From: Treponema sp.
Lineage (GTDB): Bacteria; Spirochaetota; Spirochaetia; Treponematales; Breznakiellaceae
Length of the DNA: 42,029 bases
Direction of reading: 5' to 3'
Assembly (NCBI GenBank): GCA_031288495.1
Contig: JAITRH010000183.1
Location: 1 to 42,029, forward strand
Of the stretch, positions 40,580 through 42,029 are shown one piece after another. A program made the position numbers and the translations under genes. The notes under the pieces are model-generated. The model was not told where the DNA came from and searched no databases. It was given only the letters and a program-made list of their open reading frames with translations. Numbering within the stretch: the first letter of the stretch is position 1; every line of letters begins with the position of its first letter.

Positions 40580-40598
40580 GGATAGCCTGTATTGAGGG

Positions 40599-40645
40599 TA
40601 AGGCCCTTATTCATGGGGAATAGGGGTCTTATCCTTGGTTTTTTG
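40599..40645 (+). terminator. Intrinsic terminator of the sugar operon
   Basis: Bases 40599-40612 (TAAGGCCCTTATTC) pair with 40618-40631 (GAATAGGGGTCTTA) over 14 positions with two G-T pairs and a five-base loop, followed by a T-run at 40639-40644. It sits 20 bp after the binding-protein stop. Confidence 0.85.
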
Positions 40646-40805: not shown

Positions 40806-40835
40806 TTGACAAAAATATATGATTTTTCATAAAAT
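40806..40835 (+). promoter_or_regulatory. Sigma-70 type promoter for the amino-acid transporter operon
   Basis: TTGACA (40806-40811) and TAAAAT (40830-40835) with an 18-base spacer, in AT-rich DNA. The -35 is perfect and the -10 differs at one position. Transcription should start near 40842, leaving a 5' leader of about 185 bases before the binding-protein ATG. Confidence 0.75.
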
Positions 40836-40856
40836 CCTAGTAAACTTATAGTTTAA

Positions 40857-40886
40857 ATATTATTATTATAACGATAGTAATAATAT
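40857..40886 (+). promoter_or_regulatory. 13-bp AU-rich hairpin in the mRNA leader
   Basis: ATATTATTATTAT (40857-40869), loop AACG, then ATAGTAATAATAT (40874-40886): thirteen consecutive pairs with one G-U. It lies about 15 bases after the predicted transcription start and six bases before the strong ribosome-binding site of the leader peptide. It may protect the mRNA 5' end or modulate access to that site. Confidence 0.6.
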
Positions 40887-40906
40887 GATATTAAGGAGGT
40901 AGTCTG

Positions 40907-40921
40907 ATGTGTTGTCAATAG
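40907..40921 (+). CDS. Candidate four-residue leader peptide M-C-C-Q
   Basis: ATG TGT TGT CAA TAG directly follows a near-perfect AAGGAGG site (40893-40899) at the ideal seven-base distance, inside the 5' leader of an amino-acid ABC transporter operon. Two of its three internal codons are Cys. Such a short Cys-rich frame could act as a cysteine-responsive leader. It overlaps, in another frame, a 26-codon reading frame starting two bases later. Evidence is positional; no homologues can be checked here. Confidence 0.4.
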   Translation: MCCQ

Positions 40922-40989
40922 GTGTGCTCGTAATAAGTCCGGTTCAAGAGGAAGGGTGTTGCAGTTACTTTTTACTGAGGTTCGATTAA
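40909..40989 (+). CDS. Alternative 26-residue leader peptide with a Cys-Cys pair
   Basis: A GTG at 40909, nine bases after the same AAGGAGG site, opens a frame of 26 codons ending at the TAA 40987-40989. It also contains tandem cysteine codons, TGT TGC at 40957-40962 (residues 17-18, in an EEGCCSYF context). Its stop codon sits at the base of a hairpin (40989-41016: AACA/TGTT and GCGG/CCGC stems) that ends two bases before the ribosome-binding site of the binding-protein gene. Only one of the two overlapping frames is probably used; ATG usage favours the shorter, its position relative to the hairpin favours the longer. Confidence 0.35.
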   Translation: MLSIGVLVISPVQEEGCCSYFLLRFD

Positions 40990-41028
40990 ACACAAGCGGT
41001 GATAAGCCGCAATGTTATGGAGGTTTTT

Positions 41029-41844
41029 ATGAAAAACAAGGGTTTTGTTTTATCTGTTTTGTTGTTTACAACGGTTATCGTGATCGCCGGCGCCGGCGGT
41101 TCATCCGATAAGGCGGGATCTTCCGGCGGGAAACCCCGGGAGATCATCATCGGTGCGGGTTCCGCCTACAATCCCTACTGGTTTCTGGATGAGAATAACC
41201 AGCTTACGGGCTTCGAGAAGGCGGTGCTGGACGAAATCGACGCCCGGCACCCGGAGTTCACCTTGACTTACCAGATTTACGATTTCGCGAATATTTTGCT
41301 ATCCCTGGAATCGGGGAAGATCGATGTGGCGGTCCATCAGTACGAGTACAACATTGAGCGGAATCAAAAGTACCTCTATGGCAAGGTGGGGTATACTACC
41401 TACCCTCTCTACCTGGCGGTCCGGGAAGAGGATAACAGCATCTATGGTTTTGAGGACCTCCGAGGGAAGACACTTGTCTCAACCAGTACCACTAGCAACG
41501 CCTACTACGTAGCCAACAAATGGAACGAGGATCATGGAAGGCCCTTCAACATTATCTTCGAGGCAACCGCCGCCCTGGCATTGGAGGATATCGCTTCCGG
41601 CAGGGCGGACGGGATAGTCGCCATGATACGGCTCATCGAGAGCTATAAACAGGAATACCAGGCAAAGATAAAGCGCGTCGGCGAACCGGTGAGCAATTCC
41701 AACGCCTATTATCTTTTTAACCGGCAGACCGGCGAGGAACTTCGGCAAATCTTTGACGCGGCTCTCCAGGAACTCAAGGACGACGGAACCCTGGTAAAAC
41801 TCTCCCACCAGTGGTTGGGCGGGGATTTCATCGTTAAGAACTAA
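41029..41844 (+). CDS. Amino-acid ABC transporter substrate-binding protein (family 3, cystine-type candidate)
   Basis: A 271-residue extracytoplasmic binding protein of the polar amino-acid family (SBP_bac_3). It shows the family pattern YNPYWFLDENNQLTGFEKAVLDEI, LLSLESGKIDVAVHQYEYNIERNQKYLYGKVGYTT, LEDLRGKTL-like FEDLRGKTLVSTST, and a C-terminal LQELKDDGTLVKLSHQWLGGDF. The overall look is closest to TcyJ/TcyK-type cystine binding proteins, but the ligand is inferred. The signal peptide ends in VIAGAGGSSDK, where a lipobox cysteine would be expected after AG but is absent. The mature protein contains no cysteine at all and almost no methionine. GGAGG at 41019-41023 supports the ATG at 41029. 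It is preceded by the Cys-Cys leader. Confidence 0.88.
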   Translation: MKNKGFVLSVLLFTTVIVIAGAGGSSDKAGSSGGKPREIIIGAGSAYNPYWFLDENNQLTGFEKAVLDEIDARHPEFTLTYQIYDFANILLSLESGKIDVAVHQYEYNIERNQKYLYGKVGYTTYPLYLAVREEDNSIYGFEDLRGKTLVSTSTTSNAYYVANKWNEDHGRPFNIIFEATAALALEDIASGRADGIVAMIRLIESYKQEYQAKIKRVGEPVSNSNAYYLFNRQTGEELRQIFDAALQELKDDGTLVKLSHQWLGGDFIVKN

Positions 41845-41910: not shown

Positions 41911-42029
41911 ATGAATTTTTTCAGTTGGTCGTTCTTTGTTGTCACCCTGGTCCGTATTATAGGCCGCGTTCCGGTAACGCTGGGAATTACCGCCGGGGCG
42001 TTCTCCGCCGGGCTTGTCCTGGCCTTTGT
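41911..42029 (+). CDS. Amino-acid ABC transporter permease, 5' part only
   Basis: The first 39 codons of a membrane protein that runs past the window end. The start ATG at 41911 follows a GGGAGATGGGG site. The translation begins with a short aromatic stretch (MNFFSWSFFVVTLVRIIGR) and continues into PVTLGITAGAFSAGLVLAF, which is the pattern of HisM/GlnP-type permeases of family 3 amino-acid importers at their first transmembrane segment. Its place right after the binding protein supports that reading. Confidence 0.75.
   Translation, partial: MNFFSWSFFVVTLVRIIGRVPVTLGITAGAFSAGLVLAF

Follow-up and report, generated by a model that had tools for sequence, protein, structure and literature searches.

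A conserved mini-ORF opening with two cysteine codons, a putative cysteine gauge ahead of a likely sulfur-amino-acid importer in gut treponemes

The window, that is, the whole 42,029-nucleotide stretch of Treponema sp. contig JAITRH010000183.1 analysed here, closes on the beginning of an amino-acid importer operon. The features at and upstream of this operon are as follows.

40593..40645, + strand: terminator-like hairpin (40593-40637), then a T run, 3' of the upstream sugar-binding-protein gene
40806..40835, + strand: promoter TTGACA-18-TAAAAT, 11 of 12 consensus bases matched
40830..40843, + strand: operator-like palindrome TAAAATCCTAGTAA; overlaps the -10 box and is common to the relatives' other sulfur genes
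40854..40892, + strand: 5' UTR containing an inverted repeat rich in A+T, AATATTATTATTATAACGATAGTAATAATAT (from sequence and folding)
40893..40899, + strand: Shine-Dalgarno AAGGAGG of the mini-ORF, 7 nt before the AUG (from sequence reading)
40907..40921, + strand: mini-ORF ATG TGT TGT CAA TAG, encoding MCCQ (from sequence, orthologue comparison and shuffles)
40952..41023, + strand: degenerate copy of a two-hairpin, Shine-Dalgarno-linked element, best preserved at 40979-41011
41019..41023, + strand: Shine-Dalgarno GGAGG of the importer gene, identical with the 3' end of the element copy
41029..41844, + strand: gene for a TcyK/YtmK-like amino-acid binding protein (from profile matches)
41911..42029, + strand: 5' part of the first permease gene, truncated where the contig ends; the complete operon was read in relatives

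Because a terminator-like site with its T run follows the upstream sugar-binding-protein gene, the importer locus looks like a transcription unit of its own. Its 5' UTR would measure about 60 nt up to the mini-ORF, counted from the predicted start site. Positions 40893-40921, read directly in the window, run AAGGAGG TAGTCTG ATG TGT TGT CAA TAG, and the mini-ORF stop lies 107 nt before the importer ATG at 41029. The promoter, leader, AAGGAGG and mini-ORF that the first-pass annotation had placed before a binding-protein gene are thus all present in the sequence. Its statement that the leader holds no classical terminator also stands, as a terminator scan of the window found no such site between 40841 and 41031. 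In the orthologous leaders, read by eye, no terminator/antiterminator pair was seen, and no Rfam family matched the leader at either gathering or permissive thresholds.

The gene at 41029-41844 belongs to SBP_bac_3 (E 8.6e-23), and a profile search of solved structures placed it nearest to B. subtilis YtmK (214 bits) and Lmo2349 (202 bits), with other amino-acid binders at 91 bits and below. Two permease genes and an ATPase gene complete the operon in relatives; within NCBIfam, the cystine permease is the best match of the first permease and TcyN the second best of the ATPase, all of them below equivalog cut-offs. These matches bear out the earlier assignment of the binding protein to a type that includes cystine binders. 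Directly upstream in G006 lies a PatB-family C-S lyase gene (331 bits, cut-off 340), and a PatB-like gene is recognizable by sequence likeness at the same place in G050, G053, G105, G126 and G137; the G006 gene is the one that was scored and that of G137 is the most diverged, so that five relatives can be counted safely. The window has no PatB C-S lyase upstream, its neighbor being a sugar importer. In G010, a malY/patB-like remnant is located on contig C219; the starts of C219 and C214 share about 115 nt of overlap in the leader region, and the two contigs are adjoining pieces, not two copies. The importer thus probably carries cystine or a different sulfur amino acid, and the genes downstream of the leader would, judged by their sequences, serve cysteine or sulfur metabolism.

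The importer gene, or its start, was recovered from nine genomes of the same family (G000, which is the window, and G006, G010, G050, G053, G105, G126, G137 and G188). In five of the nine, the strong ribosome-binding site and ATG-TGT-TGT are kept exactly while later codons drift, giving the peptides MCCQ (window), MCCTFRYR (G006), MCCYSASR (G010), MCC (G050) and MCCQSACPAKKLLC (G053), all behind AGGAGG in the common arrangement AGGAGG-N7/8-ATGTGTTGT. Across these five leaders every one of the nine columns of ATGTGTTGT is invariant, as against 3 of the 18 columns that follow, up to the stops of the longer ORFs. Over the remainder of the spacer the figure is 30 of 81 columns, and any two spacers are just 48-89% identical. 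The frame aligned to codons 4-8 stops at differing positions in four of the five leaders, which argues that the peptide tail is not selected. All ten conserved Cys codons are TGT, although the window's genes use TGT 42 times and TGC 36 times, and since every Cys codon of the conserved pair is TGT, these five related leaders do not tell a constraint on the amino acids from one on the nucleotides.

A sixth orthologue, G188, whose protein is 55% identical, has a leader that cannot be aligned with the others, yet it too presents a Shine-Dalgarno sequence and a tandem-Cys ORF, MNNKIKREIKYSEHCCK, a combination that 9 of 5000 shuffles reproduced. Dinucleotide shuffling of the window leader produced a Shine-Dalgarno-preceded short ORF with tandem Cys 30 times in 5000 trials, a chance of about 0.006 that includes no correction for scanning the whole window. 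The single instance in the window is hence only moderately surprising, and conservation is the stronger evidence.

In the remaining three of the nine orthologues (G105, G126 and G137) the leader is absent. The protein tree groups G105 with G053 (support 100/99), inside the leader clade; the leader was therefore most simply lost in G105, and it must be dispensable, since a genome without it nests among those that have it. At this locus (L034/L039) the mini-ORF and the two-hairpin element are both gone and the importer Shine-Dalgarno and ATG occupy the place of the relatives' mini-ORF Shine-Dalgarno, which makes it a natural deletion control; the loss may perhaps have come about by deletion between two AGGAG copies. 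Nine more distant orthologues, eight from a second family of the order plus G138 from the window's own family, carry no leader with a plausible Shine-Dalgarno sequence and tandem Cys. Nor is there a genome-wide set of MCC mini-ORFs: AGGAGG-N4-10-ATGTGYTGY had 18 matches in 200 genomes, about as many as the reversed control, and the inspected matches outside the locus were coding or belonged to longer unrelated ORFs. A conserved protein of 52-55 aa at L053 and L054 (g54 genomes), which starts MCC(Y/F)(Y/F)NGF.G behind a strong Shine-Dalgarno sequence, is unrelated to the leader. The comparison of orthologous leaders proposed in the first-pass annotation thus found the tandem Cys codons and strong ribosome-binding site kept in five, with G188 as a sixth of different peptide. 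Its cysteine-responsive reading fares well on these six leaders and on the cystine/sulfur character of the importer, and less well on the three of nine orthologues and the relatives in another family that do without a leader.

The stretch between the mini-ORF and the importer has a different affiliation, which the first-pass annotation does not mention. A covariance model built on the five leaders found matches in at least 65 of 200 family genomes, mostly to model positions from 50 on; these counts are lower bounds, with 15 candidates scored per genome. The matches define a dispersed element of about 68 nt with the consensus AGGAGTTATCATTAACACTTCGTGTTAATGTCCGATTTAACATAAGCGGCGATACCGCCGCTTTTTATAGGAGTTA, in which two hairpins lie between two AGGAG copies, and which often occurs in tandem runs with a period of 67-69 nt. 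Good copies are found at L125:1510-1585, L132:1496-1571 (minus strand) and L136:1505-1580, and tandem runs at L137 and L139. The element lies in gene orientation directly before start codons and carries its own Shine-Dalgarno sequence: 53 of 69 copies, a figure that overcounts independent sites as some were fetched twice, have a start codon opening an ORF within a few nt on their 3' side, the others being upstream members of tandem runs, copies at contig ends or a few with no visible gene. By eye, the genes 3' of the element look mutually unrelated (rpoC, adenylate kinase, NifU/IscU-like, argG, atpE, fabF, thioredoxin, aldolase and others). A strict pattern returned 56 copies in 26 genomes and none for the reversed control, and a few compensatory changes occur in the stems.

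A profile trained without the leaders recognized the element in all five of them (G010, 4e-22; G006, 2.8e-16; G053, 1.1e-14; G050, 4.9e-12; window, 7e-4). Since the leader-free profile matches there, the hairpins between mini-ORF and importer belong to the dispersed element and a reading of them as a cysteine attenuator is ruled out. The element is absent from Rfam as far as that was searched via the window. Among 30 Y1_Tnp loci scanned, one weak element match appeared (E 0.0046), which supports neither a Y1 transposase as its mover nor an IS200/IS605-derived or REP-type nature of the element. The element may be mobile, either targeting or carrying a Shine-Dalgarno sequence, and it is possibly a larger find than the Cys leader itself.

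The promoter offers a possible further link to sulfur. The eight promoters found all follow the pattern TTGAC-17/18-TANNNT then CCTAGTAA, with GGTAGTAA in G188; the seven besides the window's combine TTGAC with a 17-bp spacer. The palindromic CCTAGTAA overlaps the -10 box in the window (40830-40843) and, at L086-L088, L091, L094, L096, L098, L106, L113 and L114, those of sulfate, sulfonate, cystine-type, metK and nifB-like genes. In relatives, TAAATTCCTAGTAA, allowing one mismatch, precedes a sulfate-binding protein gene (519 bits, cut-off 288) as well as genes encoding an SsuA-like protein, a cystine-permease-like protein and permeases resembling SaoP/SsuC, and also metK and one nifB-like gene. 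The motif had roughly 40 matches and its reversed control 28, and because many are background the regulon claim draws on the promoter-placed ones; the other operator-motif genes showed no Cys leader. In these treponemes, we regard the palindrome as a candidate operator for a sulfur regulon. CymR is a sulfur regulator of the Rrf2 family, and Rrf2 genes occur in 10 of the 11 genomes of the genus, several of which have a tandem Rrf2 pair directly after a cystathionine gamma-synthase-like gene (L209, L211 and L213, read by eye); these tandem genes are candidate sulfur regulators. The assembly that contains the window, 83% complete, yielded no Rrf2 gene.

Several known systems resemble parts of this arrangement. 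In trp/his-type attenuation, a leader ORF with tandem codons of the regulated amino acid acts with a terminator/antiterminator pair; the treponeme leader shares the tandem codons and lacks the pair. In B. subtilis, the Rrf2 regulator CymR controls the ytmI (tcyJKLMN) operon for import of sulfur compounds, and the likeness extends to the YtmK-group binding protein, the cystine-type permease, the operator-like palindrome at the promoter and the Rrf2 genes in 10 of 11 genus genomes. Here the candidate regulator is seen only in genus relatives, the window's incomplete genome having yielded no Rrf2 gene, and we know of no Cys leader at ytmI. Closer in kind are the actinobacterial cys/cbs operons, which have short upstream ORFs with contiguous Cys codons and no obvious terminator (Seliverstov 2005, PMC1262725); actinobacterial Cys-rich leader ORFs are also the subject of Canestrari 2020 (doi 10.1111/mmi.14498), as cited in PMC9031893 and PMC9094748. 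The treponeme leader agrees with these in its short ORF, its run of Cys codons, its place ahead of sulfur genes and its lack of an obvious terminator, and differs in that its ORF is led by a Shine-Dalgarno sequence where theirs is leaderless, its Cys codons are at positions 2-3 instead of near the stop of a longer peptide, and its target is an importer, in the phylum Spirochaetota. Unlike the mycobacterial polycysteine ORFs, in particular, it would not start leaderless, given AAGGAGG and the predicted 5' UTR. In Rhodobacterales, uORFC-8-2 upstream of cysS has two conserved tandem Cys codons, usually codons 14-15, and an intrinsic terminator (PMC8632094); tandem Cys codons in an upstream ORF are shared, whereas the treponeme leader has neither that codon placement nor a terminator, and is not at cysS. 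Control by Cys-rich leader ORFs is thus of a known kind. For a spirochaete we found no earlier case in the literature searched, which covered few subscription journals.

With a little better than even confidence, we interpret the mini-ORF as translated and serving as a cysteine gauge for the sulfur-amino-acid importer. From the anatomy, its conservation, the drift of later codons and the sulfur context we infer translation, ribosome stalling and the sign of the response as follows. Transcription would start from the promoter whose -10 box overlaps the putative sulfur-regulon operator, and ribosomes would load at the strong AAGGAGG and, immediately after the AUG, have to read UGU UGU. A shortage of Cys-tRNA(Cys) would stall them at this point, while they still cover the start site, and importer output would go up; with ample cysteine they would complete the mini-ORF at once. 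The weakest step is the one downstream, which could be protection of the mRNA 5' end or a changed ribosome traffic toward the importer start. Our guess is that one of these is more likely than classical attenuation, because neither a terminator nor a fold that would unmask the Shine-Dalgarno sequence was found; mRNA protection specifically we consider rather unlikely.

The leader folds no better than its shuffles (z +1.14), and a structured riboswitch was rejected on that ground. Folding with a masked stalled ribosome, a calculation of folding only, gave no consistent gain in importer Shine-Dalgarno accessibility across six leaders, and the suggestion of a translational mechanism made in the first-pass annotation finds no structural support in either calculation. 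Reinitiation at the importer start was rejected as well, the stop-to-start distances of 85-116 nt being far beyond the 10-11 bp at which distances are reported to peak for leader genes (PMC4833913). Judging from G053 and G010, the mini-ORF stop would have lain close to the importer Shine-Dalgarno sequence before the element arrived, a position from which coupling would be simple. We envision, tentatively and as a possibility short of an expectation, that a three-codon frame, start-Cys-Cys-stop, is a sufficient sensor that stalls the ribosome in its earliest elongation steps and needs no attenuator hairpin and hardly any peptide, and that a mobile, Shine-Dalgarno-carrying element was inserted between sensor and gene without destroying the sensor.

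The cysteine-gauge reading has to be weighed against three others. The mini-ORF might be translated and sense nothing, acting as a ribosome-loading or mRNA-stabilizing start site in which the Cys codons are incidental. Shine-Dalgarno sequence and AUG are conserved as much as the Cys codons, with AGGAGG in all five leaders, and G105 lost the leader with no visible harm; however, codons 2-3 are invariant where codons 4 onward are not, the unrelated leader of G188 also has tandem Cys, and the downstream operon fits cystine/sulfur import, and we consider this explanation unlikely. A by-product is harder still to credit: here a mobile Shine-Dalgarno-linked element would have split the importer Shine-Dalgarno sequence from its start codon and left the mini-ORF as a remnant. 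The element copy does lie exactly between mini-ORF and importer start (leader-free profile 4e-22 to 7e-4), and G105, which has neither mini-ORF nor element, joins Shine-Dalgarno and ATG directly. A remnant would not, however, preserve ATGTGTTGT and nothing else over such a time, Cys-Cys occurs in G188 where the element is missing, and the strong-pattern search found no such mini-ORF beyond these loci.

The least probable, in our judgment very unlikely, is that ATGTGTTGT is kept as a nucleic-acid signal, whether a binding site for a protein or small RNA or a segment for RNA pairing, and not as codons. The unbroken run of TGT, despite the near-even usage in the window's genes, is what such a signal would leave, but the five leaders are related and their ten TGT codons are not independent observations; the Shine-Dalgarno-to-ATG spacing is kept besides, the folds offer no consistent pairing partner, and Rfam gives no match.

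If the cysteine-gauge reading is true, amino-acid control by leader ORFs would extend to spirochaetes and to a transporter, through a sensor close to the minimum, dependent on no more than the first two codons. The leader would also provide a clean system for a ribosome stalled right after initiation that acts on a gene about 100 nt downstream, and would predict the substrate class of the importer. The dispersed element, in turn, may help to explain how genes survive when short repeats insert precisely at their ribosome-binding sites.
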